From Deuterostichococcus epilithicus (lineage: Eukaryota; Chlorophyta; Trebouxiophyceae; Prasiolales; Stichococcaceae), in contig JAVTLE010000011.1 in assembly GCA_033439295.1 (NCBI GenBank), forward strand, positions 2,418,082-2,482,081: DNA of 64,000 nt, read 5' to 3'. A model generated the notes under the pieces. That model was not told the origin of the DNA and did not search any database. It saw only the letters and a list, made by a program, of their open reading frames with translations. Made by a program: the position numbers and the translations under genes. Positions 19,130-62,300 of the stretch are shown here, in pieces (within the stretch, counting starts at the first letter, position 1; every line of letters starts with the position of its first letter).

Positions 19130-22100
19130 ATGGACCTGCTTCGCGCTTTCTCCACGGCACAGCAGAGAGCTGTGCCATTGCCTGCGCAGCTGGAGCAGGC
19201 GCGAAAGGACAAGGCCGACAAGGGCATCAGCAGCCTGCGGGTGCCTGGCAGGTGTGGCGCATGCGGCCCGCCAAAGATGCGAGTGCCTGGCGCTTGGCGC
19301 AGCAACAAGCCGGCATTGCTGTTGTGGTAACCTGCCATGCTGCAGCCCAAGGTTCAAGCCTTCGGGCGATCCCTTCCTGCTGGCAAATCTGGCGAACTTC
19401 ATACGCAGGCATGTGGTAATCGTCAGCACCGCAGCGATCCCATGGATGACTGGCACGGCAGTGAACCCGACCCTGCGGGCGGCATATCTTGCAGAGTGCA
19501 CCGATCTGAAGGTGCGCAGCCTCCGTCCTGCTTGTCAATGGGTTTCCTGGCATGCACGGCAGCCTGGTACTCTGCGCACGCTTGGCAGCATGCGGCGGTC
19601 TGCACGAAGTACTGCAGACTGCAGCGGAGCAAAACAGACATTTCAGCGGCGAGGCCCCCGGCGTAGTGTCCTGCTCTCGGCACGTCATGCATACTGGAGG
19701 GCGACAGAGAGCCGTGGCAAGGGTGTTTGCGGCCAGACTCCCCCGTCCCGGTCCCTCTCTCGGCGTCCAGGCCTGCGGCGAGCTTGGACCGGTCGGTGAC
19801 CGCCTTGTCGGCTTTTGTGCCCGTCCAGGTGTCGCTCATGGTGCCTTGGATCGCGGAGGTAGACCAGAAGGTGCTGTTCAAGGACCACGTCAGCTTCAAG
19901 ACGCCGGAGGACCAGGTGCTTACATTATGATGTAATTAGTGCTCTGTCAGTCCTATATCAGTGCTCCATCAGCGCTGCTCGGGGGCTTTAAGGCGCCAGA
20001 AGACCAGGCGGGTGCATCTACAGGCTGAGGGACGTACACCCAAAAAACACATCAGATTTTCAGAACATGAAAGCTATGCGGAGGCCACAGCAGGCGGAAC
20101 AGTCCCGCTGTGCACTGGAGGCACAGATCGGAGGCGGCTGCAGCTTCTGCAGCGACAGTGGTGCTGAGTGAAGACTGCGGCTGCGCGGGTCGCAGTGTTA
20201 TGTTTGACGTGTCATGGTGTCCGCAACCGCATACGGCGGATGAGCCGTCCACCAGGTGATGAGTCTTTGCTGGAGGCAGGCACGAATGGAGCGCGTCGAG
20301 CCGCCGAAGAGGCCGGGCCGTGCAAGGCTCGCTGCGGATGACGGTCCGCGTCCAGATGCTCAGGCCCCGCACCGCCGATGCCGCGCAGGTGGCGCACATG
20401 TTCGACTGGGTCAAGGCGCGCGCGGGCTTCGAGGCCAGCTTCCGCGTCATCTTCTACCCGGCAGAGTACAACAAACGCATGCTGGGCATCTTCCCGATCG
20501 GCGACCCCATCCCCTATGTGCCGGAAGCCGAGGTGGGTTGAACTTCACCACAGCCTCTCCAGCGCTGAAGCGGGACGGCTGGCCGGGTCCACCATGCCAT
20601 CTGCACCAGCTCGCCGGACGCAGTCCACACCCTTCTCGCGGTGCGGTGCCACTGCTTGGAGGATGCGCAGCATGCGACTCGGTCCCACAGCGTGGTTCTG
20701 CGACAGCCTGGACGCGCACGCCACAGCACCAGCGGCCTCCGTCTCTCCGCCACCGTCGTCTCCAGAGAACCTGGGACCCTGTCATGACGCTCGGTCTTCC
20801 CTGCAGCAGCCGTTTCACTGAGTAACAAATAATTATAAATAATAATAGTACGCCCTTGCGCAGCGGGACGTGGCGGTGTTAGAGGAGCCGGAGCACCTGA
20901 CCTGGTTCCACCATGGCGTGCGGTGGACGGCTCACTTCCCGCACGTGGTGGGCATCATGCACACCAACTACGCCGAGCTGTCGCGGCGCACGCTGCCGGG
21001 CCCGCTGGGCGTCGCCGTCGGCTTTGTGAGCCGCGTCATGAACGCCTGCCTGTGCGCCGTGCACACGCACAAGGTGCGTCAATAATGAGAAAGGACTGCA
21101 CATGATTTGGACGCTGTGAGCTGTCTGATTCATGTTGCAAGCCTCGCTGGTGAGGGATATCAGCTTCTTCTGGGCTGCTGTGGGATCGCCTGGGCCCTGT
21201 GCGCGCGTCGAGCTGAGTGGAGCCGCCAAGCCGGGGCAGTCCGCCGGCCGCCTCGTGTCGCTGCCTGCGGTGTCTGCAGGCCTCCCCAGCACGCCTCGTG
21301 GTGACGCAAGCAGCACAACCGCGTGCCCGCGTGCCGCGCAGATCATCAAGCTCAGCGATGCGGTGCAGCCGCTGCCGCGGCAGGCGACGCAGTATGTCCA
21401 CGGCGCGCCCGGCTGCTTCCTGGACATCGGCGACGAGGCGTCGAAGCCGGAGCCGGACGGCGCGCCACGCTTCAGCAAGGGCGCCTACACGCTCGGCAAG
21501 ATGGTGTGGGGCAAGGTGTGTGTTTCTGGGAAAATCAGAGTTTGCTGCGGGCTGACCCCAAGCTAGGGTGTAGGGCTCAGGGAAGCTGGAGCCTTGCAGC
21601 GGCCCTCGGCTGGAGTTTGTAATGGCAGGGCACAAGCCGCAATGCGGCTGCCGAGCGTCCTCACAGCGCCACGCTTTAGGGTACAGCTGGTCTCCAGATG
21701 CAGTTGCGGAGGCTGCCCGGACAAGATGCTGCATGCTGGTGGGCAGAAAGCCGTGGCCGAGCGGCCTGATGTATGGTGCAGCAGTGCCAGCGCTGATCCT
21801 TCACTGGTCGGCTTCTGACCAAGTCCTGTGTCGCTCCCAGTGACTCGTGTTGCTTTCTGTATCAATTCAAAATCTGCTGCTACAGGGCTGGGAGGAGCTG
21901 CTGGAGTGCCTGGAGAAGCAGCGCGACCGCGGCGAGCCGCTGCCGGAGATCGCCGGCTTTGGCAGCGGCGAGGCCGAGGACTCGGTGAGCGTCTGTGTAT
22001 GCACCTGTGGTTCCTGCTTTCTTTCTTCTTGCCAATGTGTGCAGCGGCCAGCCGCTGCCAAGGTTGGGTTGCCCGGCTTAGGCAGCAGCGTGACGACTGT

Positions 22101-24580
22101 CAGGGAAGGGGTCCCTTCGTGGCTGCCGCTGCGTCCTTCTACCGGTGCATGGCGGCGTTGCACGGCGGCAGTACGAAAGCATTCAAGCGGTCCATGTGGG
22201 TGACCGCTGCTCAGGCCTCTGCTGGGCATCCCTAGACTCACTGGGAGACGATCCGTCACAGGGGATGCACGCATTGTTGTCCAGGTCACTGCGGGTCACA
22301 GCAAGTGTGATGGGACGCCCGTTCACCAGCGAGCAGCGTGCTGTTTGGCGTCACCGCAGATCAAGAAGCGGGCGAATGACGGGAAGCTCAACATCAAGTT
22401 CATGGGGCGGGTAGACCACTTGGATGAGCAGTTGCGACCGTACAAGGTCGGTTCCCAGAGTTCATGCATGCAGGCCACCCATACCCCACTGCCGCTCCTG
22501 GGCAGCATCGGTCTGCAAGCGTGCTCCCTTCGCCCTGGCGATGGCTGCATTCACAGATGCAAGCCACACATGCGCCACTGCTCCTGTTTTCACTGCTCCT
22601 GTTGTCAAAGGAGCGCATCAACCTGCCTGGCGTTCCCTCCGCCCAGGCGGCATGTGCTGCACTGTTCAATGGCCCTCGCGCCGCGTGCGTCCCGCAGGTG
22701 TTTGTGAATGCCAGCACAAGCGACGTGGTCGCCACGACCTCGGTGGAAGCGCTTGCAATGGTGGGAATCTCTTGTGACCCTTACACCATCGTCCACTTGC
22801 TGAAAAACCGTCCGCTGGAGCGGTCTGACCTGTCAAACTTGCGCTGGATTGCTGCCATGGCGCCTGCAGGGGATGCTAAGTCCCACTTAGAATCCCCTTG
22901 GCGCCTGTGCCTGCTGCTGCCTCCCATTCCGCCAGGCCTCTCGCCGTTCTTTTGGAACCCAAGATTGCACGCCCTGCCTGCAGGGCAAGTGGGTGGTCGC
23001 CGCCAAGCACCCGTGCAACGACTTCATCAGCGGCTTTCACAACGCGCTCATCTACACGACCCCGGAGGAGTTTTCTGCGCACCTGCTGCATGCGGCGGAC
23101 AATCAGCCAAAGCCGCTGACGGAAGACGAGCGGTACCAGCTCAGCTGGGAGGCTGCCACAGAGCGGTGAGGTTTTTCCTGCTGCTGGGCTACCTGCTTGT
23201 AATGCTCAAGGGTCCGGACGACCGGACAGAAGGTGGTGGCAGAACAGCGCGCTGTTCTCAGGCTGTGGTGCATCGTCGATTTGTCTTGGCACTGCCACAA
23301 CTGGCGAGCAGGCTGGGCAAGGAAGCTGTGACAGAGTGGTGACCAAGTTCACAGCCTTTCTTGCTGCATCAGCCAGCATGTGTGCGCTAAAAGCCTAGCT
23401 GCTGCGTCACTCGTTACCTCGAGCCCCTCTGCCATGAACATGGCTGCGATTCTTTGGCTCACCTGCGCTGGAATGTTCACAGTCAAGCAGCGCATTCCAT
23501 CAACGGTTGCCAGATTGCGCAGCCACAGAGCAGATCAAGTAGCCCTTTGAGCTGGCTGGAGCTGTCGTGCATGTGACATGCAAATGTTCTGAGCTCATGT
23601 CAGCGTGCAAACGCTTTCATGACCTGCACAGCATGTTCAAGGCGTAAGCAAAGCCTGCAACAGAATCCTGGACGCTGCGCGGCGGCTGCGTGTCCAGCCG
23701 CCTGGCGGATATATGGTTTCAAACCCGAGAGTATGCCGCTGTGTCGCAGGTTCCTGGACGCGGCGGAGCTGCGCGAAGGCGGCCTGTCCGGCCCCATCCG
23801 GCGGCTGCGAGAGGGGGCGCTGTTCAAGGCGTACAATGCGTACATGGGCGTTGAGCCGCTGCGGACCACCGCCGGCGCGACGCCGGGCACGCGCGACACC
23901 CCAGACGAGCTCACGGATGTGGACCTGCAGGTGACACAGACTGCTGATCTTTCGTGTCAGATGTTTTTTTGGGCGTTCTTGTGTTCAAAAATCATAGCTC
24001 TGGACCCTTTCAGGCATATGGACCCTCTTCAGGCCCTGGACCCTCGTCAGGCCTCAGGGAACCGGAAGCTCTGTCTCAAAGGGTGATGTAGTAGGCCCGA
24101 CAGAAAACGCTGGGGGCTGCGCCTCTGCTGGCGCGATGCCGGGCACGCGCAACACCCCCGACGAGCTCCTGACATCGACCTGCTGCGGGCAGGTGGATGG
24201 GCGTTGCCAGGGGGTGTCCGGCCACCATCGACTTGTTGGAGCCCTGGCACTGCTCGTCCAGCAGCATGCCTCGCTCGTTTTGCTGGAGAACAACGCCTTC
24301 AGGGAGCGTTTGGAGGGGAATTGTCCGACTCGGGAGCCGGGGCTGACGGCAGCACGCCCACACTACGATGCGCCCCCAACGAGGAAGCTCAACAGGCCTT
24401 TTGGGTTTGCAAACATGAAATCATGAAGGGTTTCCGGCCCCGCAGGCCAGGAAGGAGCGGGAGCAGGCGGCCAAGGCGGCGGCAGGCAAGGGCTGGTACC
24501 GCAACGCACGAAGCGCAGTGTCCTTCTCGGACCTGGCGGGCGTCAACATCCGCGTCGCCAGCGGCGCGGGCGACGAGTGA
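19130..24580 (+). CDS. DGD1: Digalactosyldiacylglycerol synthase
   Basis: A GT4-type galactosyltransferase that adds a second galactose from UDP-galactose to MGDG, making DGDG of plastid membranes; plant enzymes sit in the outer envelope. Exons: 19130-19251, 19352-19511, 19829-19915, 20389-20532, 20864-21073, 21342-21515, 21886-21984, 22360-22446, 22698-22760, 22984-23165, 23750-23930, 24446-24580. All junctions are in phase and give 547 residues. Family landmarks: STAAIPWMTGTAVNPTLRAAYLAE at the donor-side start, VLEEPEHLTWFHHG, VVGIMHTNY, FSKGAYTLGKMVWGK, the GFGSGE loop, STSDVVATTSVEALAM, and QLSWEAATERF. The start at 19130 (MDLLRAFSTAQQ) leaves only about 60 residues before the catalytic core. 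The architecture is therefore close to plant DGD2 and lacks the long N-terminal extension of plant DGD1. DGD1 is used as the generic symbol. Four of its introns hold echoes of the preceding exon end. Confidence 0.93.
19986..20007 (+). repeat. Exon-edge echo in DGD intron (FKAPEDQ)
   Basis: A direct copy of the end of exon 19829-19915 lies 92 bases downstream in the intron. The exon (19894-19915) reads FKTPEDQ and the copy reads FKAPEDQ in the same frame. Four bases differ in 22, three of them at third codon positions. Confidence 0.75.
22049..22100 (+). repeat. Exon-edge echo in DGD intron (AGFGSG end)
   Basis: It resembles the end of exon 21886-21984: AGCCGCTGCC, then after a small gap GGCTTxGGCAGCxGCG, occur in both in the same order. 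The exon reads AGFGSGEA and the copy PGLGSSVT. Confidence 0.6.
23311..23341 (+). repeat. Exon-edge echo in DGD intron (EAATER end)
   Basis: The exon end at 23143-23165 (GCTGGGA then GGCTGCCACAGAGCG, before GTGAGG) is echoed as GCTGGGCAA then GGAAGCTGTGACAGAGTG, before GTGACC. The in-frame readings are EAATER and EAVTEW. The copy lies about 170 bases into the same intron and keeps a potential GT donor. Confidence 0.65.
24118..24194 (+). repeat. Exon-edge echo in DGD intron (PGTRNTPDEL)
   Basis: A clear copy of the last 70 bases or so of exon 23750-23930. The exon reads AGATPGTRDTPDELTDVDLQ; the copy reads AGAMPGTRNTPDEL in the same frame, then diverges and ends with a CAG/GTGG junction at 24194. 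Of the echoes in this window it is the longest and best preserved. Confidence 0.85.
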
Positions 24581-25610
24581 GGAGCCGCGTGACCTGCGGC
24601 AGCAGCGGCTGGCGTGCTGCCCTCTGGTCGTACAAACGTGGGCAGCCGGGGCGGGCTCTTGCAGTGTTCTGCTGCCGGCGCTGTCGGCAAAAGCGGGGCT
24701 GCGGCCCTCATGTGAGAAGATATCACAGTAAGTCGAAAGCAATCAGGCACTCCTTTTGCGCTGGGTCGTCCTGAAATTTCGAACTGCAGCATGTCGCACA
24801 AGCTAGCCTCCTGTATAGCAGTTAGCTGATCTGTTGGTATTGGTGCAGTAGTGGGGCAGCGGTGGCTCTGCCTCGTTGCAGCTTTTGCACGTGCCTGATC
24901 CACAAGGCAGGCCGGGCTGGCACCAAGTGGCTTCTAGCAACGCTAGCCCAGCGTGATGTCAAATAACTGCTACTTGCAGCGTCACCTACACCAGAATTTT
25001 GTGGTTTTCGGAGTTCCAATTCAGGCTGCATCTGTGAGACAACATGGTAAGTGTAAGCATCCCTGCCACATATGGTACTAGGGCCTGTAAACACGCTCAA
25101 CGCATGTATGCATGCAAGAGGTTCGGTGTACAATGGACATATTGTACGGCCGCCGCAGCACAAGAAGAGCTGGCCGGCGCACGACTTTGGTTACTCGTTG
25201 GGGTGCATCCAGTGCTGCTGAACTGGACCCTCACATGCACACTTCGCCGCCGTACATCCGACAAAAGACACCGTTCAGGGCAACACCTAGACGAGCCACA
25301 CCTGTTTGCCATCAGCTCGGCGTGAAAGGAGCTGCCCAGAAACACAACGCTGCAGCAACACCTGACAAGGTTGGACCGCATGCATGACTCTGCCAATTTT
25401 GACACCGCCACCTTCAACATTGACACATGCATATGCCGGAGGTCTGCCCGGCATCTTCACCATACATGGTGGCAGGGACCACACGAGTGCCATGAAAAAA
25501 CGGGCAAGATTGACCCCTCGGCTGCTTCCGACGCCCTCCTCAAATACATCTCCATCAATAGGCTGAGCTCCTGCACCCCGCGGCGAGCGTGGGCACGACC
25601 GCTGGCGGGC
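24581..25610. other. Intergenic region between convergent genes
   Basis: It separates the stop of DGD (+) from the stop of the coiled-coil gene (-). A TGTAA, the green-algal poly(A) signal, occurs near 25086, about 500 bases after the DGD stop. I see no coding exon. Confidence 0.45.
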
Positions 25611-46085: not shown

Positions 46086-49000
46086 TCAGAAGTCGGCGTG
46101 GCCGGGCCACCGCGGGAAGGGCAGCGCCTCCCTGAACACAACCCACATAAATTCGTCAGGGCTGGAAAATTGAATAGCAGCAGTTTGTGGGGCAGCCCGC
46201 GCACGCAAGCTGCTGAGCAGAGCATGGACCCTCACCACTCATCGGCGGGTGGTTCAGCAGGATCTGGCAGGGGGTGGGCGGGATGGAGGCGCACCTGATG
46301 TTCTCGAGCCCTGTGGCGAAGAGCACCTGCACACACCAATCGCAGGTGTTGGTGACATGCAGCCAAAGATGGTAACCGCCAACGCCCACACGGGCACTTT
46401 CATGCATCGCGGCGGATCCAGGGGCTTGGCGGCAGGTGACCCCGGACAGGGACGGTTTTCCCGACATCCTGGCCATACGGCGCTGAACAGGCATGCAGTG
46501 ACAGCCTGCTGGCAGCACCAGGCGCTCGAAGCCGAGACCAAAGCCGGCGTGGGGAACGGAGCCGTAGCGGCGCAGGTCCAGGTAGAACTCGTACTGCTCC
46601 AGCTCCATGCCGCCCTCCTTGATGCGCCGCTCCAGCACCTGTGCTCGGTTGGCGGTGGACGCACGTGGGCAGGGTTCACCAGGGTTGAGGGTTTTGCGGC
46701 TCGCGGTAGCCTGCTCCAGCTCGGTGCTGCCTTATTGGTGCTGCGCACCAGCACTCGACGGCACAATGACAAGCCTGAGCCAATACGAGGGTCTCAGGTC
46801 GTGGCAGTGTCAGAACAGAAAAGGCTCTGCGTTTCGTAGAATTGACTATTGGCGGTTTGCCGGGTGTGCCGCTCAGGCGACACTGATACCCTGACCGCGC
46901 GGCAAGCGCACGACCCGGACGCGCGGTCCGCCGCTCGCGCAGGGCGGCCTTACGGGCCGGGTCACTATTGACACAAGGCGAAGGCACAGCAGGGGTGATG
47001 GGCCGGCTTTACTGCCCGTCCATCCACCCATCGACAGAAGGGGCAGGCACAGCAAGGGTGATGAGAAGAAAAAAGATCGCACGTCAAGGCGCTCCTCGCG
47101 CTGGGAGCCGCCGATGAGCTCGCCCACCTTGGGCACCAGCACGTCCATCGCAGCGACGGTGCGGTTGTCGTCGTTCAGCCGCATGTAGAACGCCTGCCGC
47201 AGTGGGACACAGCAGCTGTCGGTTTTCACGGGCCAGGGTGCGCCGCAGACTGAACCAGGCCAGCACGTCCGCGTATTACCACGGAGGTGGTCCTCGCCAA
47301 ACAGCCGCCTGCAGAATGCCCCGCCACTCTTTGTGGATTTGTGTGGATTCTTTCTAGCGGATCTCCTAGGCTCGAGTGCACTGCAGGGTCATGCAAGGCT
47401 ACGATTTTTGTGCCCAATTTGGCAGTCGCTGCCCTTCAAAAATGATGCTCGTTTGCAAAGGCCCATCCTTCATCTTGCAGCGCATCTCAAGATGACATCC
47501 AGCTTATTCACTGATTCTAGGAGATTTAACCTGCCGCCGGCTGATCTTTCATAGTGAACCATTGCAGCTATCATTCAGAATATGACACAAGGCGTGCCTT
47601 GATGTCTTTGGGATAGTTGTAGACGATGACGGGCTGGCGGAAGACCTCCTCGGTGAGGTACCGCTCGTGCTCCGACGCCAGGTCGATGCCCCAGGACACC
47701 TGCACGCGCGACGGGTTTCTCTCAACTTGCACAGCGTTCTGCCAATCACGAGCACAATGGACGTTTAAAGTTCCAGGTGACACCTTCGTGAGGTTCCGCC
47801 CGCCCAGTGCCGCATGTCGATGCCGAAGGACACCTGCGCGCATCCTCCCGGGACATGAACATCAGCGAGCTTGCTTGCGCCTTGCCAGTGTACCTGCTTC
47901 GAAAGAACCCACAATTACGTACGTCCGAGGACACTGTTTGTTTCATGTCTTGGTTCAGGGTTTGTTTTCAACAAGACCAGCCGAGAAGTGGCCGCTGGGC
48001 ACCAGGAGGGCCGTCAGCCAATGCAGCCGCTTGGCATGCAGAAACACACAATACGTTCAACACATCAGCTGTGCGGGGGAAGAAGGTGTGCGACCACAGC
48101 GGCACTATGGCCCCTGCAACGGCGGCCACTGCGGCTCAGACCCAGACCTTCCCACGCCCAGCAGGTGATGCAACCTCATGCAGGGTACAATATCGGCGCG
48201 GGAAACAGGGTCAGGCCACGAGGGTGTGTCGACTGTTGTGACAGCAAGCGTCTGAGCCACAGCTCAGCGCCATGATGAGTGGCCTGAACGCCACACCGGG
48301 ACAGCACAGCACGCGCTCGATCCAGTGCAGCAGCGCTGCTGCCGCGCGAGAGCTGCACAGCGCACGACCGCCCTCCGGCGCAGCAGCGACAGAACTGCTC
48401 AAGATGCCAAAAGCCCTAGACCCGACGCACCGGGAACTCGAACTTCTTCTTGCCGTCGCGCACGACGCCCTCCAGGATCTCAACCGCCTCCGTGTAGGAC
48501 AGCCGCTTGAAGGGCGTAGAGGCGACGTGCTCCAGCCGCGCCACGGCCGTCTTGTCTATCTGCTTGGTGATGAACTCCAGGTCGTCCCTGCATTCAGGGT
48601 TTAGGGTACTTTAGACGATCATGCTCGCAAGTATGGGATTTTGCCACTTCGGTGGGTGTGCATCCCTTGTGTCCGCCTGGCTCATGATAAGCCATCTGGC
48701 GGTCCTGTAGAGTAGAAGGAAAAAAGCAGCTGCAGCTGTTCATTGACAGGTGCAGGATTCGGCAGTCCAGCGGTCCAGCGGGTCCAGCGATGTTCGAAGC
48801 ACGACACCACGAACTTGTCAACCTGATATACTATGGCTCTTGTCCCTGCTCTGGACCGACGACGACGCACGCTAGTAACTTGCTATTGTTGCTGCAGCCT
48901 GTATACCACCCACTCAGCTGTGACAAAAGACAACGCTGCACACAGCGCAGGCCTTGGCTGTCAGGCCGTGCCCTGATGCGGATTCAGATGTGGCAGCAAT

Positions 49001-49254: not shown

Positions 49255-49286
<32 letters not shown>

Positions 49287-52200
49287 ATTGCTCAGCGAGC
49301 ACGCAAAGTTCTCCACCTGGCGCGCAGGGACGACGGCAGCTCAGCATGGCAACTCTGCCATCCCAAGCCTCAAACTATTTCAAGTTTTCAGAATTACTAA
49401 AAAAGAAGATTACAGTAGTTGCATGGCGAATCTGCCATCTCAAGCTTCTGGTCTGAGCAGTAGGTAGCGTGCCGAGCCCAGCAAGCATCAAACCTGCAGC
49501 TCCTGAGTGGGCGGCATGCGCCTGCAGTGCCCGAATCTGAAGCTGGAAACGGTCAAGCAGTGAGGAGGTGATTGGACCAAGGGGTCCTTGGCGTCGCTGA
49601 GCAGCTCGCCACACGGGTCTGAGCTTGGCGCACCAGGACGACATTCCACCCAGGTTCACAGGCTGTGCAGCCGTCACTTTGCATGGTGCTAGACGATGTA
49701 CCAGCTGCCCACCTGCAGCTGGCCGGACACGGTGAGGTAGGCCGGCTTCCCGAAGAAGTCCTGCCTGTAGTCGACGCCGCCGCCGGGCACCCGCGGCAGC
49801 CCGCCCTCATACCGCGGCCTGGGGCGATCACATTGTCGCTAACATGATCAACTCCCTGAGGGCAAGCGCTCGACTGCTGCGGTGTTGTTCGAGGAGTAGC
49901 ATGCGGTTTGCAGCTTATGGTGCTGCTTCATGCGTGAGTGACCACTCTGCCGCCAGGCCCCGCTGCCGCCGCCCTCCAACAACCTTGTGCTCTGAGCGGG
50001 AGCTGTGCTCCGCTCCGTGATGCTCCTCGCGGGCTATGGCTGTCGAAATCAAGGAAGCAGATTGTGAAGGCGCACCCGGTTTCGGCAGCGGTGACCTCGT
50101 TCTTGAGCGCCACCAGCTTAGCGAGCTCCGTCTTCACCGTTTCTGCCAGGCCCTTGTCCTCCTTGTTGGCTGCCGCCGCCTGCAATACAGCAGCGGGCTA
50201 GGCGGACACGTGGCGGTTTCCTGCTTGTTCCTGCACGTTGGAACCTCGATGCTGCTGGTCCTGCCCTCGTTGTTGGCTACCGCTGCCGGCCAGGTCACGG
50301 CAGAAGAATATGAACAGCCCGTTCTGCTCCTCAGATATGCCGCTCAAAAGTCACGCCAGATCAGGGATTTTGCTGTAGATACGTCTTGGCCGTGCCACGA
50401 CAGACTTAGGTTGGCCAAAATCCTTGTACAAACACAGCGCCACAAATTGCAGCACCCACCGCCTTGGCCTCCTTTACGGCAGAGCCCTGCGTAGAGGCAC
50501 GCTGCTTCAGCTCCGCCAGCTGCTCTGGACCCAGCTGCTGCCCCTGGGACTTGGCCTCCACATCGCCCAGCAGCGTGGTGACCTGCGTAGGAGCGCCGAG
50601 GAGGGTCTGGTGTTGGCTGCAGGAAGGATACAGACGGGCAAGCGCACGATGTGCTGCTGGCGCTCTGCTTGGTCTTGACCGGGCTGCGGGGCCAACATCC
50701 TTGCCACAGGGTGTCGTGTGTCTTCAAGACGACAGCCCGCAAGCAGTGAGAGGCGAAAAGATCTCCGTGCGGCTCGCAGGCGCTCACTCGGTGCACGGCA
50801 CAGTGCCGACAACACACCTGGAACATCTCGCCGGCGCCCTCGGCGTCGCTGGCGGTGATGATGGGCGTGTGCACATACAGGAAGCCATGCTCCTGCATGC
50901 ATCCACAGTCTTGCATTTGTGAGGAGGTTTGGTCGTCGGCTGTGCATAGTCGAGCAGCAACCCGGCGACAGCATGTGGGCTAGAAGCGCATTCGCCACCA
51001 GGTCTCTTGCCGTGGCTGGCAGGGCCTCGGTGCCTGCCGAATTTGAACCCAATCGCAGGTTTCAAGCTCCGCTCTGCATGTGCGGCTTCCAAATGCGCCG
51101 AGCAGATGGCGAGCGAAGCCCGTGCAAGGCTGCAGGCAGGCGCTCTACATTGATGCCTGCTGGCGCCGACAGGGCAGGGCAAACAACGGGGTTCCACTCC
51201 AAGCACAGGACGCCTCCAGCACCCGTAATCGCAGCGGCACCTGGAAGAAGCTGTGCGTGGCGTAGGCGAGCGCGTTGCGGATGCGCGCGACGCAGCCGAT
51301 GGTGTTGGTGCGCGGCCGCAGGTGCGCCTTCTCCCGCAGGAACTCGTAGGACGTCTTCTTCTTGGCCAGCGGGTAGGCCCCCGCGTCGACGGCCCCCACG
51401 TGCACCACCCTGCTCGCCTGCAGCTCCACTTGCTGCGCAGACACGAGAGGAACCCGGCTGGGAACTTGCTTTATATTTTGTCTCATGCCAGCGTCAACGA
51501 CGCCCATGTGTAGTACGCTGCTCCACAGCAGCTCCCCCTTGCTGCACATGGGCGATGCGGGCGACAGCGCATTATGACCTGTCCGGGTGCACGGCCAGGC
51601 AGCGTCCTGTGGGCCGCCAGAGCCGGGTGGTTGCCACAGCATCCGCGGGGTCCGGCATGCGCCGCCGCGCTGTCCATGCAAGCTCAGCGGCTGGTCGCGT
51701 CTGGGCTTAGCCAAGTTTGTACGCACGACCTCCAGCCGCCGCTGCGCACACGCACTGCAGCTGCACCCTGCCTCGGCCCGGCGCAGATCCAGACCTGTAC
51801 AGACCTTCTGACCCCTGTTCTGAGCCCACGGTCTTCGCTTGCCATCATCAACCTACTAGTTGCTCATGCATCGCTGAGCCCGTGATGTAATGCTGTGCAA
51901 AGCAAAGCAAGGCCATCACCAACCAACCTGCTTGGTGCCCTCGGGCGTTTTGACGAGCTGGCCCTCTACCAGGACGCAGGTCCCGGTGGCGGTGACGTCC
52001 TTCAGGCTGCTCAGCGCCTCGCTCGCATCCACCACCTCCTTCTTCACCAGCACCTGTGCGGCGCGGCGTTACAGATACAGTGAGCAGGCCGTACATGGTG
52101 TTGCTCTGCGTGCCGAGTCTCTCCAACACTTCGAACCTCATGCACAGCAGCGCGGCGCATCCTCACCAGCACCTGTGCGGTGTGGCGCTAAGAGGTAAAG

Positions 52201-53732
52201 TGATCGTGCAGGCAGGCAGGCAGGCGGGCGGGCAGGCAGGCCGTACAGGCTGTTGCTATGTGTACCCGAGGTGACACAAACGTCTAAGATCTCGTGCACA
52301 GCAGCGCGGTGCATCAGCACACAGGGTTGCGCTGCCGCCCGCTGGCGTCCTCAGCACAGCGTTCGACTCCACCCAATCGACATGCGGCATGCGCATTGCT
52401 TCGGATCTGCCCCAACCATAACTACCCTTGCTGGCATGAATGTCGAGCCAGCACGAAGCTGAACGTCCATTCTAACATTGATCCTACCTGGAGGTTGGGG
52501 AAGGTGGAGCCGTCATTGACCTCCAAGAAGGCAAAGTCGCCGCCGCCGGCCGTCCGCCCCGTCTTCACCCAGCCGCCCACCCGCAGCGTGCGGCCCACCT
52601 GCAGGCAGGGATGAGCACCGCCTCCACAGCCTGCAGAGGCTGTCCATCCGAACACCGCGTGCATTCAGCCATCCAGGGTATGCCAGCACGCGCCGGCCGC
52701 TGCTGGACACACATGCGAGGGCTCCGGGGATCCGAAGCTGCAACTCTTTTGCACGTGGCGCCTCACGGCTGCAAGCGGGCCGACGGCTGAAACAGTGCAT
52801 GCAAAGTGCATGCATGCAATGCGGCACCTGGCTGACGCCGCCGTCGTCCGCTTTCAGGATGGCGGAGATCATTGTGCGCTGGAAGCTGGCCGAGTATGGC
52901 GCCACTCGCTCCGACTCCCGCTGCCGGATCGTCATCTGCTGCCCAAGGCCGCACCGTCAGTTTTCACAGTCTCAGAGGCTGTGGCGGCGCGGTCACGGAG
53001 CATGCCGCCCTCCGGCGGGGGCGGTGAGGTGGCAAGCGGCGCCGCCGCAGCCCGAGCTTCTCCTGAAGTTGATTGGGATGTGCTGCCCTGTATCTAGGAC
53101 GTGGTGAGCTGAAGGTTCGAGGCGTCACAGCTGCAAACTGGATCAGATGCTGGCGTCATGCCGAGCCGAAGTGGCGGCCACCGCTGCCGGCTGCGGTGTT
53201 TGGCAATGTTGATCAAGAGGAATAGCCAAAATACACTCCTCAATCGGCCATCTGGATCACCTCCGCGTGGAACGACTGAGTGAGGTCTTTGGAACGTAAC
53301 ATGCAAACATGATTTGCACATGGCGCCCCGCCGCCACGACTGGTCGACATTTCGCATTTATTGTCCGGCACAGTACCTTGCATGCAGATACCCTTTGAAA
53401 TGCAAATTGTAAGTTAGAGCTGTCTGTCAAAGCAGTTGTCGACTTGCCTGCAGGTCCGCGAGCTGCTTTCTAAGGGCATCCAGCTCCTGTGACTGTGCAC
53501 CACCATCCGCGACGGAGGGTGGTTGTGCTGTGCTCATCGCAACAGTTCGAGAGCCTCTGCAGGACTGCAAGCTCCTACCGAACTGAAGCCTTCGCTGTGC
53601 GACAGATTTGCTGATGTCGGGACGGCTGCCCGCTGCCAATGCGAGGTTTCTGAATGATCCGCTGGTACCCCAAAAACGGCGCAAGCTTGCAAGGCGCCCT
53701 GTAATCATGTCCTGAAGAGCTACCTCACGCAT
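46086..53732 (-). CDS. NARS1: Asparaginyl-tRNA synthetase, plant cytosolic type
   Basis: A class IIb synthetase charging tRNA-Asn. Exons: 53448-53732, 52828-52935, 52488-52598, 51928-52053, 51241-51432, 50818-50892, 50460-50582, 50076-50179, 49713-49818, 49117-49316, 48431-48587, 47598-47699, 47083-47193, 46519-46638, 46295-46326, 46086-46131. All phases agree: 665 residues from ATG 53732 or 600 from ATG 53537. Order: OB-fold ([27 protein letters not shown]), linker, motif 1 region ([36 protein letters not shown]), the charged insert typical of plant cytosolic forms (50076-50582), motif 2 ([20 protein letters not shown]), [34 protein letters not shown], motif 3 (GFGLGFERL), end [11 protein letters not shown]. 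The 65 residues before the second ATG are rich in Arg, Ser and Ala and almost free of acidic residues near [18 protein letters not shown], like an organelle presequence. Introns after 53448 and 47598 start with GC. Confidence 0.95.
47780..47841 (-). repeat. Exon-edge echo upstream of AsnRS exon 47598-47699
   Basis: It resembles the acceptor side of the exon. GCAG then GTGTCCTGGGGCATCGACC in the exon is echoed as GCAG then GTGTCCTTCGGCATCGACA in the intron before it, reading VSWGID and VSFGID. Looser similarity extends over about 60 bases. Confidence 0.75.
49344..49448 (-). repeat. Intronic direct repeat, two 28-base copies
   Basis: Plus-strand copies at 49344-49371 and 49421-49448 (GCATGGCAACTCTGCCATCC and GCATGGCGAATCTGCCATCT, then CAAGCxTC) lie in an AsnRS intron. 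An A+T-rich spacer separates them. I see no coding potential. Confidence 0.75.
51491..51541 (-). repeat. Exon-edge echo upstream of AsnRS exon 51241-51432
   Basis: A degraded copy of the 5' part of the exon (51384-51432, encoding [17 protein letters not shown]), about 60 bases upstream in the intron. It keeps an AG acceptor-like GCAGCAAG. About two thirds of the 50 positions agree by eye. Confidence 0.7.
52045..52315 (-). repeat. Imperfect tandem duplication spanning an AsnRS acceptor, with (GGCA)n expansion
   Basis: Two copies, 52045-52161 and 52164-52315, share CACCAGCACCTGTGCGG at one end, GCAGGCCGTACA in the middle and GCACAGCAGCGCGG at the other. The first copy contains the acceptor and first nine bases (VLV) of exon 51928-52053, so the second copy carries a duplicated acceptor. 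The second copy is longer because of a GGCA-type tetranucleotide run at 52210-52241. Confidence 0.85.
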
Positions 53733-53957: not shown

Positions 53958-54707
53958 TTACACCGCTAAACAGCCAATGTTCCTCAAAAACCACAAGCGT
54001 GACCAACAAATCCTGTAGCGAAACTGCTTTATCTGCCCAGACAAGCGGCAATCAGAGGTGCATCCATGTTGTTCGGGAAAGCCAACGTGGGAAAGGTAGC
54101 CAGACTTCTGTTTCAAGACGCATCTCCACTGGGCCTTTCGCTTGACTTTGTGAAACGGCCAGCGGCAGCTCCGCTGCTTCATCTTCTCCGCCTCCTCCTT
54201 CTTGCGTTTCGCGGCGGCCGCCTTCCGGGCCTCCCGCCGGCGCTTCAGCTGGCGGCTCTGCAGGCACAAGGGCGGTGACAATCAACATCGCAGGAACACT
54301 TGACGGCAAAACATGCTTGGCAGATTGCAGTCAGAGAGCTCCTTGATGTGGACACTACAGAAAGCAAGAAGCCCTCTCACCGGAACTGCCTCACCTCGTC
54401 GTCGTCGTCGTCGTCGTCGTCTTGGTCGGTGAGGTCCTCCGCCTCGAAGGAGGCCTTCCACCGGCTCGCCCTGACGCAAGAAGGACTGGGTGCTGTTAAA
54501 CTGAGCACTAAGCCGTTGCAGACACGACTTCGACAGCTGCATAACCGCACAATCGTTCCGGAGTTGTTCCGTACATACTCACTTTGCGGATTCCATAACG
54601 CCCACGCCGACATCGCGCATTCCGCGCTGGATAATCATGCTGCTGAAGACCCACGCGCAGCTGATGAGCGCCGCGCTGACAATCACCGCGCCACTGCCCA
54701 CAGGCAT
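53958..54707 (-). CDS. Small single-pass membrane protein with basic tail, tandem paralogue 1
   Basis: Exons 54583-54707, 54395-54470 and 53958-54257 join in phase to give 166 residues. The N-terminus is a TM helix (GAVIVSAALISCAWVFSS) followed by IIQRGMRDVGVGVMESAK. Exon 2 encodes SRWKASFEAEDLTDQ and then eight Asp from a GTC-repeat tract. Exon 3 starts with a strongly basic, probably helical stretch (RQLKRRREARKAAAAKRKKE). The region after about 54170 has weaker coding character, so the true stop may lie earlier by a further splice. The gene has the same exon structure as the one at 55353-55989 and no family that I recognise. Its 3' end lies only about 225 bases from the AsnRS start. Confidence 0.6.
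54398..54421 (-). repeat. (GTC)8 trinucleotide repeat encoding poly-Asp
   Basis: Eight GTC units on the plus strand give eight consecutive Asp codons in exon 2 of the membrane protein gene. The paralogue has only HDDD here, so the tract expanded after the duplication. Confidence 0.95.
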
Positions 54708-55352
54708 GTTGCTGCTCAGACTCTGACACTGGCGATGACGAGCGCGCAAGAATTCTGGCCATCTGCTTCGGAAGTGAGTCTTACTCTGAGTCACGAGACG
54801 TGTCAGAGTTGTGCGGAGCAGTTGAATGTTGAGTGTTTGAAAGTTGAAAGTTTGGCGCCGTCTGCGCCTGGAAGGGCGTCGGGCGTGAATCAAGCGTCAG
54901 GATTCCTAATCCCCAGTTGTGGAACGTGGAAAGCAGAGGAGCCTGGCTGCAGCAATTTTAGGATGGAGCGAAGACGAGGGTGCGTGCTTGCTGTTTCGGG
55001 TTTGGTGTCTGTTGGAAGCTGGGGAAGCAGAAGCTGGTTTCAGCTGCAGAGACAGGGTGCGCCGCAAGCCCGATCTACTAACTGGATGTAAGACAACAAA
55101 ACTCACGTGCTCGGGGCCGAGAAAGACAGACAGGGTATGTCTGTGGCACAGAAATCAGGATCGACGTCGAGTTACATATCCAAACAGACAATGTCACTCA
55201 AAACCACTGGCGCGGACAAGACAACAAATATGACAGCTAGACTGGTGTAATCTTGTTCATGAAGGCTGCAGCCCATCTGTTCAGGACAGAACAGCTTGCA
55301 AAGTAGCTTGCAAAGTAGATCGTAGTGCACTCTGCATGACCATACCGGGCTT

Positions 55353-55989
55353 TTAAGGCGGCCACGGGCAGTGCTGTTGCTTCCCCTTGTCCTCCTCCTC
55401 CTCCTTCTTGCGTGCGGCCGCCATCGAGTCCGCCCGACGGCCATTGCGCTTGTGCCCTGCAGCCGGAGGGACAATGGTGACAACAATCGACATCGCTGCT
55501 GAACTCCACGGCAATACATGCTGCGCACATCGCGGTCAGAGAGCACCTAGATATCGAACCTCAAACGAAAAAGAAAGGAGCCCTCTCACCGGAGCTGCCT
55601 CACCTGCATCAGGTCATCGTCGTGGAGGTCTGTGAGGTCCTCAGCCTCGAAGGTGGCCTTCCAACGCGACGACCTGATGCAGAAAGGTTCTCGTTCTCTG
55701 AAATGTGCACCACGCCGTTGCAGACACGAACTCCACAGCCGCTCAACCGCGAACTCGTTCCGCAATGTCATACAGTGCATACTCACTTCGCCAGCTGGAC
55801 GACGCCGACGCCGGCATTGCGCATGCCGTCACGCATGCCGTCGCCGATGCTGGACATGCCGTTACCGACGCTGGCCATCCCCTGCTGCATGCCCTTCTGG
55901 ATATTGTGGCTGCTGGCCACCCAGGCGCCGCCGATGATGACACTGCTCAGCACGGCACTGAGGACGATGGCCTCGGGAGTGCTCACCAT
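55353..55989 (-). CDS. Small single-pass membrane protein, tandem paralogue 2
   Basis: Exon 55787-55989 encodes MVSTPEAIVLSAVLSSVIIG and continues through a TM helix into an amphipathic Gly/Met-rich repeat (GMQQGMASVGNGMSSIGDGM). It ends AGVGVVQLAK, matching DVGVGVMESAK of the paralogue. Exon 55604-55673 encodes SRWKATFEAEDLTDLHDDD. A third exon near 55353-55465 aligns with the paralogue's basic exon, and in that frame reads ARKKEEEEDKGKQQ with a stop at 55353. However, the splice phase I find does not lead into that frame, so the C-terminus is uncertain and may have been altered. The gene faces the diflavin reductase across a short divergent promoter. Confidence 0.55.
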
Positions 55990-56425
55990 CTTGTCAGGCG
56001 CTGCTGCCTGCTGCGCTGCTGATAATCTGACGCTGATGCAGGGGCAAGCACCGCCTAGAATGGCACTGATGGCGAGACGTGCCGAGACGTGTGGAAGCAC
56101 CTATTGCAGCGATGGAGCGACGACGAGGTAGCGTGCTGTTATTCAACTGGACCCATGGAAAAAGCCGACTACGCCCACTCATTCACGACCACGCAACGCA
56201 ATCGCGTGCACGCCATTCTTCTCGCATGAGTCTTCTCGCATGAGTCTTCTGGCGATGAGGCAGCGCTTCTCCCACTTCGACCACTCACTCGCCTAGTCTG
56301 GCGCTGAAGTGCAATCCGCGCCAGGATGGGTGAATGTCGACATGCCATGTGATCAACAATTCAGCATTGCAAAATCTCGGATGCATCAGAAAGTAGTTTG
56401 ACTTCGCTGCAAGGGAGTCTGCGCC
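55990..56425. promoter_or_regulatory. Short divergent promoter region
   Basis: About 435 bases separate the starts of the small membrane protein (-) and the diflavin reductase (+). A tandem CTTCTCGCATGAGT occurs near 56218-56247. I recognise no other motif. Confidence 0.4.
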
Positions 56426-59357
56426 ATGCCGGACGGCAGCATGCAGAGCCGTATGTGGCAGCAGGTGCAGCTCACGCGGTCGCAGGCGCTGGCGGCTGCC
56501 ATCAGCGTGCCCCTATTGTATGCCACCTTGTCCGTGGTCTTCCGGCGCAAGAAGCGGCAAGATGTTCAGACCGGCTTTGATTCCTTCCTGAAGCAGCCGG
56601 CGGCAACCAGCGCCGGCAGCGCAGGTGTGCAGACCGGCTGTGAAAGTACCTGGCCTTCACCTCAGAAGTTGTGCCGGATTACCTGGCTCAGCCACGCCAT
56701 CAATGACGAGAAGCACGCGACCACCCGTTGGAATTTGGCGGCGGCGCCATGTCAAAGATCACAATAGAATGCGGCGGCAGCATTTGACTGGCATGCCATG
56801 CCGCAGGGCCGCTGGCAGCCACAGACTTTGGCTCCTTCCTGAAGCGCGGAGCGGCCGCCGCAGCCGTGGCGCAGCCGGCGGCGGCCGCCAGCGACGGGCC
56901 GCCGCTGACGCCGGACTCTGTGGTCGTGACCATCCTGTTTGGCACGGAGTATGGCTTCTCAAAGGAGATCGCTGAGAAGCTGCGGGACGCGCTGCGTGCT
57001 CAGCCGCCCTACTGGTGAGTGTGACATGCACTGCTGCGCAAATGCAAGCTAGACAAAGCAGCAGAACAGAAAGGCAGCTAGACGGTGGTCGCCTGCCAAG
57101 GGTGGGCGCACGCTGCCCATGCTGGCCGCCCAAACATGTTGGCAATGCCGAGCAGGCACAGAGGGAGCTGCTGCATCTGCATGACCTGCCCGCAGCCTGC
57201 AGCCCCTCAACCAGAACGAAAGTCATGCAGCCTGTCTCCGGTATGAGGTGGGGGACGCTTGCAAAATTGCGCGCAGGCCGCGGGTCGTTGACATGGCGGA
57301 TCATCCAGAGGGGCTGGACCTCAGCAAAGAGCAGGCGCTGCTGGTCGTCTGCTCCACTCAGGTGCGCCACCGGATCAGGAGACTATTGCTTTGCACGGCA
57401 TCACTTGCCGGGCACAGCAGGGAGCAGGCACTGCTGGCATCTGCTCCACTCGGGTGCGTGCACAGCCCTGTTGGCAGTGGTAGTCGTGCCTTTGGCGGGC
57501 AGCCAGACAGCACCACTGGCTGCATGCTAGATGCTGAAGGAAAGGGTCCGGACACCTGATTCCCAGCCCCTGGGACCGGGCGGACATGGTTTGCGCAAAT
57601 CGCGCCAGCTTGTTCAACGCCTCACACAAGGCATTAGAGTTGCTGCAGACGCTTCTCGATGTATCTAACTGCAGGGCGATGGCGTGCCACCTGCGGAGGC
57701 ACGTGACTTCTGCGACTGGCTCGGCGGAGGCGCGCTCGCGGAGGGCGCACTTGCCAACACATCCTTCTCAGTTTGCGCCCTTGGGGACAAGTGCGTGCCC
57801 TGAGTCCGCCCAGCGCCGCCATGAGAACAACAGCTGCAACGATGCGGCATGCGGCAGGACACCTCACACTCGAGCTCCCCAAAGGCACCGCTCTTGGACC
57901 GATGCCCATCAGGCTTTGCGATGTAATTGCGGGTGCCCACGCCAGCAGCACGACTCCTCGTTGCGGAACGCCGTCGTGACAACATGCGGGTTTGCGCGCG
58001 GGCAGGTCATATGAGCACTACTGCGCCTGCGGCAAGGCGCTGGACGCTCGGCTGGAGGGTCTGGGTGGCCGCCGCTTCGTGCCGCGGACCGACGTCAACC
58101 GCGAGGACTGGCCCGCGGTCGACGCCTGGCTGGCGGCCGCGGCGTCAGGCCTCAAGTCGCTGGCGCTGCGCCCAGCGGCGGACACAGGTGTGCTGAAATC
58201 CGGTTGGGTTTTGGTGCTTCGAGATGAGCAGTGGCATGAGCCAGCGACAGGCTATACCTGCCAAGAGGGTGCTGGGAGCGGGGCGCCGGCAGCGCGCCAT
58301 GACCACAGGAGCGTTGCCTGTCGTCCTGTAGCAGTCGTGCGGCGGGCCGTCTCATCCCGGCAGCATTTCTAGCCTTGTGCCTGCCACACCGAAGCACGTT
58401 TGCACGGTCGGCATCCTGAACGTAGCAAAGAGCTGCAGCAGCAGAGCGCCGCTCTGCCATGGTGCAACCGAGTGCCACTCTGCCACGGTGCAGGCCAGGT
58501 TGGCGAGGGCTCAGCGGAGCCGGCGACGGCGCGACGGTGGGGCAAGAACCGTCCGTACCCGGGCCGCGTGGTCGCCATAGAGGGCCTGTGCGACATTCGC
58601 AGCGCTGACGACAAGGACACGGTGCGCTGCGCATCCTGCATCCTGCAACGCGCGTTCCGCATCCTGCAGCCTGCGTGCAGCTCTGCAACAGGCGACACAG
58701 TATACCAGCACTGCAAGGGGGGAGGTGCCCGGCAGCCATGCTCGCAGCTGCGCCAGAACGGTTGATGCCCTGATGCGGCGCCCAGATGCTGCATCTTGGG
58801 CCTGCCCGACGCCTGTGCTCCAGTGGGTATGGTGTTGCGCACAGCGAACAAGTCGATAGTTTCTGCATCAGGAGCTTGTGCCGTGCAGCGGTGGCATGCT
58901 GCCGCTATCACTCAGCAGCCGACCTGGCCGCTGTGGCGCATCACCTGATGTCTGCGGTCGCAGGTGCGGGTGGAGATCGACCTGGGGGACTCTGGTATTA
59001 CCTACGCTCCCGGCGACGCGCTCGGCATCTGTCCCAGCAACCGCTCCGAGGTGCGCTTTCTGGGTCATCTGTACTTTGTCGTCGAAGGATCGTGCGTGCA
59101 GAGGTCGTGTGCATTCAATCGCGTTTGCAGAGCCGAAAGGGAACCGGTGCCTCCGAAGCCAGCAGCTGGTCCCACAGCGCAACCGCGTGTCAGTCTCGCA
59201 TCATCGGCGCTCGAAATCGCATTCAGATCTGGACATGTATCTCAGTAAACGTGCCTGGCCCCGCTGCAGGACGTGGAGCAGCTCCTGGAGGCAATGGGTG
59301 CCGACGGCGACGAGGCGGTGCCGCGCCCCGGCTGGCCCTTCCGGCAGGCTGGCGACG

Positions 59358-59390
<33 letters not shown>

Positions 59391-62300
59391 TGCTGCCGCT
59401 GCGCGACGCCCTCACCTCCTGCTACGACATCAGGCAGGATTTCTGGGGATGTGCTGCAAGGCTTCCCCATGGCTTCAGGAGGATGCTGGCGGCCACCGCT
59501 GGGGCTTTGCCACCCCAGTCAGCGGCGCCGCCGCCACAGGCAGCTGCGAGATTAAAGCGAAGCGCGGGCTCCTGGCTGTTCCTTGAACCCACAGGCTGAC
59601 GGAAGCAGGCACTGTGCCCTGCAGTTGCTGCATCCTCTTCTTGTTGTAGACGCCACCACCTTGCTGCGATGTGTTGCCGGCCAGGTTGCTGAGTGCTGCT
59701 ACACTTTCTTGACGCAGGGCGCCAAAGCCGGAGCTCCTCCAGGCGCTGCTGAAGGCGCTGCCAGAGGCCAGCAAAGCCAGCGCGACCGCTGGCGTCTCCG
59801 CCCAGGGTTTGGCAGATGGCGCCGCAAACGGCCTGCAGAACGGGAACGCGCACGCGCATGCCAATGGGAACGCAAATGGGCTGGTGAACGGCGCACCGAA
59901 TGGCACAGCAAACGGCACGGACTTCAAGCAGCCTGTCAAGCAGTCTGTGAGCCCTGAGGACCAGGTGATCACGAAACAGTCTGGAAAATCTTGCAGAGAT
60001 GCTGCTGTTGTGGACAAAGCCTGGTCTCCAGTGCAATCAGCACGTGCGCTGAGGCGGTTGCAGGGGCCTCAGAGGCTCGGCCGATTGCTTCCATGGAGCG
60101 AGTGTGCGTCTCGAGAGGTTGCTCTGCGCTGATCTAGCCACTGGCAGGCCCCTCCGGCAGCTGCCGGGGGTACCAGCAGGCGTCGTCGAAGTGAAAGCTC
60201 GCATGGAGGCTTGCTCAGGGAGAAACCAACCAGCCTGGCCTACAAACCTAACTTTAAACCCTAAAGAAAGTCTGTAAATTCATGTGTGGCAGGCGCAGCG
60301 GCTGCAGGAGGTGCTGGCGGGTGATGCCGAGGCGTACCTGGCGCCGCGCCACGTCAGCGACGTGCTGGTGGACTTCTCTGCGGCGCGCCTCCCAGCACCC
60401 GAGGTGGGCACACCGGCGCTGAAGTAATGGACACCCGAGTGTCACCAGGGCGTGCCCTGCAGCAGTTGGTTTTAAGGCTTAGGGTTTGCGCCTGCGGGCC
60501 TGCATTGTCGTAGCAGAGCCAACGGTGGCCGCTGTGTATCTGCCTGCATGTTCCGCCTGAGTGCAGCGCGCCCGCTGGGTCTCCCTACCGTGCCACAGCT
60601 GCTGGGCGGGCTGCGGCGCCTGCAGCGGCAGGCTGCGAACCCACAGATGTTCCTGCGCAGCGCAATCTCTTTGCAAGGTTCATGTCCCACGGGCGCTGCG
60701 CCGCCTGCATCGCGCTGCATCCGGCTGCACGATGCCAAACTCAACGGCTCACAATTCTGCGGCTCAGCGCCCACCCCCTGTGGTCACGCTCCGCAGGCGC
60801 TGGCGGAGCCCCGCCTGCTGCATTGCGCTGCACAGTTCCGGCTGCGCGTTTTTAAACTCTGCGGCTCAGCGTCAGCCCCTGTGGTCATGTCAAACCCTAA
60901 ACCCGCAGGTGTTGGCGGGGCTGCGGCAGCTGCAGCCGCGGCTGTACTCCATCTCCAGTGCTCAGGCGGAGGCGGCCGACCGCGTGCAGGTAATTTATTT
61001 GCTTCGTCTCCCACTTCTATGTACTTTTTGGCGAGATCCGGGAGGATTTATCCGCTTTACTCCATCATTACGATGCTCTCCACTGCCTCCGGGTGCAGGT
61101 CACCGTCGCCGTCGTGCGCTACGACGCGCTCGGGCGGCAGCGCGTCGGCGTGACGTCGACGCTGCTGGCGGAGCGGCTCCAGGTGTGTGTGGCGCACCTC
61201 TGCTCTTTGCCAAATATGTGCAAATGTCATATATACATGTCAAATTGAATGTGTGTGTGTGTGGACCTGTGAGAAGGCGTCGCTTGGTTCTTGCGCCTGT
61301 GGCAGGCCCATGTGAGTGAGTTTGTGCCTGGCCCATCACCAGTGGTGTGCACCTGACGAGGCCATTTAGTGGTGGCGCACCACGGGGGTTCGGCTGCATG
61401 GGCGTCAGCAAGGCGTCAGCTCGACGTCTCAAGAGGCCAGGCGCGCAGCTGCGGCGCCCCCGTCTCTCCCCCCTCGATAGAGCTCCCACTAAACCCTCCG
61501 CAGGTGGGCGACACGCTGCCGGTGTACGTGTCCAAAAACCCCGACTTCCGGCTGCCGCCCCAGCCGGCGACGCCCATCATCATGGTGGGGCCGGGGACCG
61601 GGCTGGCGCCCTTCCGCGCCTTCATGCAGCACCGCATCCTGGGCGCCGACTGCGGCGGCGCAGCGGAGTCCGGGCAGAGGCACAGCAGCGCCGGCGACGG
61701 CGCGGCCGCCGGGCGACCGGGGAGTGAGCAGCCGGCGCCGCGGCGGGCGGCGGCCAGCGCCGCGGAGCCGCCGCACAGCCACGCCACGCCGCCGCCCAGC
61801 GTCGCGTCCTCGGAGGCATCCGCGGCGGAGGACGCGGCCGAGGCGCAGCCAGAAGCGGCCCCGGCGGCGGACGGCGCGGCGGTGGCGGCGGCGGCGGCGG
61901 AAAAGCCCACTGCGGGAGCCGCGATGCTGTTCTTTGGCTGCCGCCGCGCCGACCAGGACTACCTGTATGGCGACCTGCTACAGGGCTGGGCGGATGCCGG
62001 CCAGCTGGAGCTGCACACCGCCTTCTCCCGTCAGCAGGTGCCTTTGATTCTCGGTCAAATTTCTCAGCTTCAACAGGCTTCAGCCAAAGAACGACGTGTT
62101 TCCACCGGCGCCTGGCGTCCGGTGTGCGGCCACCAGCAGGTTGCCACATGGTGTCTGGCGATCAGAGTCTGGCATTCATCGTCTTGGCACCCTGTGCAGA
62201 GCTAGGCTGCTCCAGCCTGTCGATCATTGTCGAGCGCCAGCCTTCAGGAGCTCCTGCACAACACGCAGCTGACGCCAGTCCTGGTGCGCGCCGCAGCAGT

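Follow-up and report, generated by a model that had tools for sequence, protein, structure and literature searches.

Worn copies of exon edges in introns of the green alga Deuterostichococcus epilithicus, and their possible origin in old repair insertions

Analysis of a 64,000-bp stretch of contig JAVTLE010000011.1 of the chlorophyte Deuterostichococcus epilithicus (assembly GCA_033439295.1; C10:2418082-2482081, the whole stretch being termed the window below), along with further regions of the same genome, showed that some introns contain worn copies of an adjoining exon's edge. There appears to be about an even chance that these copies are the scars of old repair insertions, each of which would have duplicated ~50-80 bp across an exon border. 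An initial annotation of the window had described such copies in four genes and suggested that they might reflect an unusually active process of short tandem duplication, yielding introns or spare splice sites.

Own-exon matches and the anatomy of the copies

The genome comprises 46.79 Mb in 21 contigs, from which the main sample took 264 kb, namely 164 kb of C10 that end in the window, together with 100 kb of C1; a third region, 50 kb of C5, brings the total to 0.31 Mb or 0.67% of the genome. The G+C (guanine plus cytosine) content of the three regions is 61-64%. Copy pairs are named by region and position, with A for the 164 kb of C10 (window position being A minus 100000), B for C1 and C for C5. 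Gene models were computed from sequence alone by a self-trained two-strand hidden Markov model (HMM), which provided 539 usable introns on A and B. In its self-trained matrices the predicted introns of the 264 kb have the donor consensus CAG/GTGCG, with GC donors at ~8%, and an acceptor consensus with C at -3 (98%), G at -4 (76%) and G as the first base of the exon (76%). The intron-exon test set retained the 429 of these introns that are at least 60 bp long and have two flanking exons of at least 30 bp, leaving out 110.

Alignment of every intron to its flanking exons, as the initial annotation had proposed, recovered the own upstream exon edge at a score of at least 34, the threshold adopted for copies, in 13 of the 429 introns and the own downstream edge in 16, i.e. 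at 29 of 858 borders. In comparison, exons of other genes reached this score in 1 of 4290 upstream and 0 of 4290 downstream draws (1/8,580), reversed exons of other genes in 3/4290, reversed own exons in 0/429 on either side (0/858 borders), and same-gene exons at a distance above 1.2 kb in 1/1204. A repeat with fresh random controls gave 19/484 borders versus 2/4840 on C10 and 10/374 versus 2/3740 on C1 (pooled, 29/858 versus 4/8580), with reversed own exons again at 0 in both. Likewise, a scan of the 264 kb independent of the gene models found 79 direct versus 4 inverted local repeats after complexity filtering (114 versus 11 unfiltered); it was used in place of a BLAST scan, whose lack of spacings below 60 bp is probably an artefact. 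The regions are indeed G+C-rich, but the failure of other-gene, reversed and distant same-gene exons to match rules out low complexity as the cause, and the notion that the copies are its by-product retains a negligible probability. The matches lie far above chance, and short duplications at exon borders, as initially put forward, are a cause of the right kind.

After a low-complexity filter the final set holds 29 copies at 25 borders of 24 introns, four borders carrying two copies each, and these are spread over two contigs and 13 of the 36 gene blocks there; their clustering by gene is no more than suggestive (permutation p 0.065). The copies are direct throughout and lie 82-317 bp from their source, in keeping with the single orientation and the distance of ~70-300 bases noted at the outset. 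The aligned exon length is 17-75 bp (median 40) and the spacer 41-255 bp, and the donor and acceptor sides contribute near equally (13 and 16 copies, respectively). Most copies end at the border: 27 of 34 with a score of at least 30 stop within 8 bp of the splice site. They are also concentrated in long introns, occurring in 20 of the 102 introns of at least 350 bp and in 4 of the 327 shorter ones, with a median length of 464 in copy-bearing introns versus 258. Splice motifs are partly retained, with the AG present in 12/15 acceptor-side copies, while donor-side copies have GT in 2/12 and GC in 3/12, followed by donor-like bases (positions +3 to +6 score 0.67, standard error 0.83, with real donors at 1.66 and random sequence at -1.86).

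Flanks, decay, age and the origin of the copies

The sequence on either side of the border bears directly on how the copies arose. Across the first 36 bp of exon the identity between copy and source is 0.56-0.90 per 4-bp bin; it is 0.71-0.90 over the final 8 exonic bp and falls to the null level ~5-8 bp past the border. Homologous intron flanks (pair-HMM log-odds >1) were found in 6/27 pairs, 1/12 on the donor side and 5/15 on the acceptor side, and the mean donor-side flank log-odds is -1.35 versus a null of -1.43. The spacer is mostly unrelated to the corresponding region, resembling it at p<0.05 in only 4/31 pairs (3/31 under other scoring; p 0.03 and 0.08 when combined).

The model favoured at first, and implied by the initial annotation, was simple tandem duplication, head to tail, of the entire interval of 80-160 bp, i.e. 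the exon edge with the start or end of the intron, followed by neutral decay. Such duplication of a stretch crossing a border is documented in potato (PMC4974935), and it is well supported here at B25121, B19537 and 52041/52160 of the window, with spacer homology at B21785 and B26269. Tandem duplications confined to introns are likewise present (32-77 bp spacing, 88-98% identity), and this short-unit duplication inside introns looks recent. However, whole-unit duplication predicts flank homology in 50-97% of pairs (at 0.15-0.35 changes per site), far above the observed 6/27, and similarity across the full interval is confined to a few pairs such as B25121, the intron past the border being unrelated in most. 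Two true local duplications retain introns 80-86% identical beside exons 78-89% identical, so that the loss of flanks at the copies is not merely a matter of fast intron change. One of them, a calibrator near 2374784-2375547 of C10, is a true local tandem duplication of a 383-bp exon and intron unit, with two copies 86-89% identical. Hence the flank tests reject tandem duplication for the set, though several pairs stay tandem, and as the general account it is rather unlikely.

The steep fall of identity at the border and the null donor-side log-odds would suit the converse possibility, in which a strand was copied from the exon only up to the splice site and placed in the adjoining intron, for example by a process coupled to transcription or splicing. 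Against this stand the five acceptor-side pairs with homologous flanks: a purely border-limited set should exceed a log-odds of 1 in 4-7% of pairs, as opposed to the observed 22%, and is rejected, while an overshoot of 10-20 bp would be hard to detect at such an age. A spliced-RNA template is also unsupported, with the flanks of 27 copies scoring a mean of 1.93 against the neighbouring exon (null 2.13). Border-limited copying is thus improbable. The same low probability attaches to a past burst, since stopped, in which strands copied to within ~6 bp of the splice site were laid in sense orientation 80-300 bp off and gave rise to most copies; given the homologous flanks of some acceptor-side pairs, it cannot cover every copy.

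A further candidate is imperfect break repair that captures nearby DNA at random positions, as in repair-mediated duplications and doublets. The closeness, shortness and unrelated flanks of the copies agree with published events of this kind (PMC2671141), but simulated blocks drawn from anywhere in the exon end at the border in only 25-54% of cases, compared to 27/34 observed, and the direct orientation is left unexplained. Accordingly, we regard random capture as quite unlikely.

The reading given about an even chance above, that of repair insertions spanning a border, would work in the following manner. An insertion would duplicate ~50-80 bp at its ends as direct repeats, with ~40-250 bp of unrelated sequence between them, a scar such as might be left by a staggered double-strand break repaired by fill-in and filler DNA. 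Such events would strike anywhere, but within a coding exon they would ruin the reading frame and be lost. A block lying across an exon-intron border, on the other hand, would place a splice site in both copies, so that the spliceosome could skip one copy along with the filler and leave the protein intact. Purifying selection would then hold the exon copy, while the other, now in a lengthened intron, would be free to decay. The arrangement expected of a staggered-break insertion, a direct repeat around a non-homologous insert, is what was found, with spacer or flank unrelated in most pairs. When border-crossing blocks of 50-80 bp with unrelated spacers are simulated at 0.25-0.3 changes per site, 71-83% end at the border (79% observed), with an identity of 0.85 and a length of 40 (0.833 and 42.9 observed, 26 copies) and flank homology in 27-32% (6/27 observed), so that one simulation reproduces all four statistics. 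The number of copy pairs is small, and these simulations rest on an exon third-position rate of 0.6 of the neutral rate and on indel rates calibrated on the two local duplications.

Several observations weigh against border-spanning repair insertions. The C5 region has no own-exon match of at least 34 at 198 borders (controls 2/1980; own reversed exons 1/198) where the rate on A and B would give ~6.7, which indicates that the pattern is patchy; introns of at least 350 bp number only 13 on C, versus 74 on A and 28 on B. Given that flank homology on the donor side is only 1/12 and at the null level, the duplicated block may end more abruptly at the border than proposed. The border-crossing simulation also scores slightly low, with a mean of 41 versus 44.7 and a share scoring at least 60 of 0.05-0.06 versus 4/29. 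Away from borders, too, there are short exact pairs whose spacers are unrelated (A41717, B48991), and the sample regions showed no fresh example of a border with a clean insert. No source of the filler was found for two copy-bearing introns searched genome-wide, which matched nothing besides their own exon edge; one of them, intron 23931-24445 of the window, returned only itself and that edge. Finally, the gene models come from our own HMM only, and the rates from just two local duplications. As an observation in its own right, B48991-49074 on C1 is an exact 21-bp direct repeat within one intron, around an unrelated 42-bp spacer, and resembles a recent insertion that left a long target duplication.

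The decay of the copies shows no coding constraint. Mismatches at codon positions 1, 2 and 3 number 51/409, 64/406 and 90/403 (0.125, 0.158 and 0.223), positions 1 and 2 thus decaying alike; 14 of 19 indels are of 1 bp, and the spacings leave remainders of three in the ratio 11/8/10, i.e. they are out of frame. The initial annotation had suggested that third-position differences could point to translation of some copies for a time; the unspared second position, the 1-bp indels and the spacings run counter to this, and translation of the copies is rejected. A neutral simulation gave mismatches of 0.14/0.13/0.20 and a third-position share of 41-43% (44% observed); this agreement is no independent test because the third-position rate of the exon had been derived from the very excess in question. 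Under this model the excess stems from synonymous change in the exon, and translation of the copies is not needed to explain the mismatches. The partly retained splice motifs might still suggest that the copies are present or former functional alternative exon edges, but the coding constraint expected of alternative or mutually exclusive exons was not found, position 2 being no better kept than position 1, and this explanation is very improbable.

Nor do the copies bear the signature of intron gain. Among 502 introns examined under the Rogers model of tandem duplication, the intron start matched the downstream exon start at a score of at least 10 in 1 (0.20%; shuffled pairs 0.33%) and the intron end matched the upstream exon end in 6 (1.20%; shuffled 0.73%), with mean scores of 2.04 versus 1.92 for starts and 3.06 versus 3.11 for ends. 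In the absence of any excess over shuffled pairs, and with the copies sitting within long introns, the claim that the process makes introns is not borne out and the Rogers model is rejected here. An introner-like family was also not seen: comparison between the introns of at least 40 bp among the 539 gave 12 hits at E<1e-3, several of them between neighbours.

The ages of the copies are old and fall in a narrow range. Uniform ages of 0-0.35 changes per site predict that 42% of copies score at least 60 and 49% have an identity of at least 0.92, versus 4/29 (P 0.0013) and 1/29 (P 8e-8) observed, whereas one age of 0.2-0.3 changes per site fits. With a steady process rejected and a single old age class fitting, the term 'active' used initially is unsupported for the present; on this modelling, copying was once active and is at present not evidently so in the 264 kb. 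Pairs of high identity need not be young, as the simulation yields such scores as the best among many old copies. The gene-model-free list contains eight pairs of at least 92% identity, of which only A75293 is both longer than 25 bp and spaced by at least 80 bp. B25753 is a fairly young border tandem duplication (spacing 78 bp, 68/79 identical), and like it some young copies could hide as exons called by the gene finder.

Copies and other repeats in the window

The window contains four genes in which copies had been named, and in their spliced products the only stop is terminal. Their domains are those of a glycosyltransferase of group 1, nicastrin, a class II tRNA synthetase (D/K/N type) and a flavodoxin/FAD/NAD reductase, with which the labels DGD for the first and AsnRS for the third are compatible as far as domain matches go. 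Each named site was compared with 585-609 exon-border windows, all oriented to the same transcript strand, more than 8 kb away in the same 164 kb. Nine of the 11 sites beat every local control (p 0.0016-0.0017, the floor of the test), their scores being 28 at 19986, 32 at 22049, 68 at 24118, 41 at 43673, 40 at 47780, 44 at 51491, 45 at 52164, 57 at 57414 and 38 at 60595. The site at 23311 is marginal, and that at 44620 (score 26, p 0.008) does not stand as an intron copy: 44620-44668 is an exon in the gene model, and its 13-bp match sits within exon 44080-44240.

In the glycosyltransferase gene, on the plus strand, the end of the predicted exon 19829-19915 (19893-19916) is 20/24 identical to a decayed copy at 19985-20008 in intron 19916-20355. 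A second decayed copy at 22044-22090 in intron 21985-22359 derives from 21929-21970 near the end of exon 21886-21984, the alignment halting 14 bp short of the border. The marginal match is that of 23321-23342 to 23148-23169 at the end of exon 22984-23165 (score 24, p 0.043). The copy with the top score in the window lies at 24116-24183 in intron 23931-24445, with its source at 23858-23928 at the end of exon 23750-23930 (58/71 identical). The nicastrin gene, also on the plus strand, has a copy at 43673-43700 in intron 43549-43756 that is 25/28 identical to 43516-43543 at the end of exon 43384-43548.

On the minus strand, 47788-47841 in the tRNA synthetase gene copies the start of exon 47598-47699 (source 47653-47707; 42/55), 51488-51548 the source 51380-51439, made up of the start of exon 51241-51417 and 22 bp of intron (46/61), and 52160-52203 the source 52041-52083 at the border 52053/52054, of which 30 bp are intronic and 13 bp exonic (36/44). 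The spacer adjoining the last copy is repeated too, and beside it lies an intron-intron repeat at 52084-52315 (60/80 identical); given this adjacency the tRNA synthetase intron seems to be made of several local duplications. Two further minus-strand copies were absent from the initial list, one at 46711-46754 of 46594-46638, where exon 46519-46638 starts (35/45), and one at 37299-37362 of an exon start at 37162-37224 (50/64).

In the reductase gene, on the plus strand, the source at 57322-57366 comprises the end of an exon and the first 5 bp of intron 57362-57674, and its copy at 57415-57458 in that intron (39/45) retains the GTGCG donor motif. The copy at 60593-60635, in a 505-bp intron, lies upstream of its source at 60903-60944, which comprises the start of an 81-bp exon with 6 bp of intron (34/43).

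A tandem duplication of ~1.2 kb, partial and rich in indels, is formed by the intervals 54156-54624 and 55359-55828; its exon-like parts are 78% and its intron-like parts 80% identical, and it is possibly a gene fragment decaying next to its source. At 9097-9249, inside a predicted coding region, lies a minisatellite whose unit is 65 bp long and which has an exact repeat of 64 bp.

Known duplication systems and implications

Comparison with the relevant passages of published work places the copies near several known systems. In Daphnia, new introns have direct repeats of 4-12 bp of terminal exon bases attributed to staggered breaks (PMC4202315; cited in PMC3443670), and internal repeats arising through such breaks are proposed there to lengthen introns (PMC4202315). 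The direct repeat of the terminal bases of the adjoining exon and the inserted sequence are shared with the present case, but the Daphnia repeats are placed at the other end of a new intron, whereas here 17-75 bp are aligned inside long introns, at ordinary borders (29 of 1,056 examined), and the copies are old. The potato RdRp gene gained an intron by a border-crossing tandem duplication (PMC4974935), in which, as here, the duplicated stretch bears the splice signals of the border; that case concerns one gene and a new intron, while here 13/36 gene blocks are involved with no sign of new introns and with mostly unrelated spacers. The AGGT tandem-duplication model of Rogers is described in the same paper, and Drosophila introns have been ascribed to tandem duplication (PMC2891723). 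These resemble the present copies as exonic duplications beside splice sites, and old ones may lose their footprint, but here the intron ends do not show the matches predicted by the model in excess of shuffled pairs.

Vertebrate genomes contain repair-mediated local duplications and doublets (PMC2671141), which like the present copies are short, local and tied to break repair. Few of the 824 donors listed there include an exon (4 partial exon/intron, 2 full exon and 2 intron/full exon/intron in Table 2 of PMC2671141) and one exon copy is inverted, unlike the dominance of exon borders and the direct orientation seen here. In mammalian cells, fill-in of 3' overhangs at induced breaks gives small head-to-tail duplications whose size is set in the experiments by overhangs of ~50 bp (PMC8355091); this would be plausible enzymology for the present copies, though these are separated by a spacer. 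Introners, too, contribute intron sequence and may create target duplications, of 3-9 bp where shown, but form dispersed families (PMC9860276), none of which was seen here. Among the literature matches listed, judged by titles and the starts of abstracts, none reports frequent exon-edge copies in introns, whether of algae or of other organisms, and the present set stands apart from known work by the length of its blocks, by lying at ordinary borders of long introns and by the age profile of the copies.

These findings imply that third-position differences do not show that copies were translated, and that exon copies nearby do not alone imply intron gain. If the improbable splice-border burst were true, introns would have been lengthened in one ancestral burst, and exon edges would record a mutation process coupled to splicing or transcription, of which there is no description among the literature matches listed. 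If, instead, the copies are scars of repair insertions, exon borders would act as a recorder of such repair: since selection keeps one copy of a border-spanning duplication, scars too old to be recognized in pure intron DNA would still be readable. The copies may thereby allow insertions that lengthen introns to be counted and dated, and the question of why introns grow to be asked, from a single genome.

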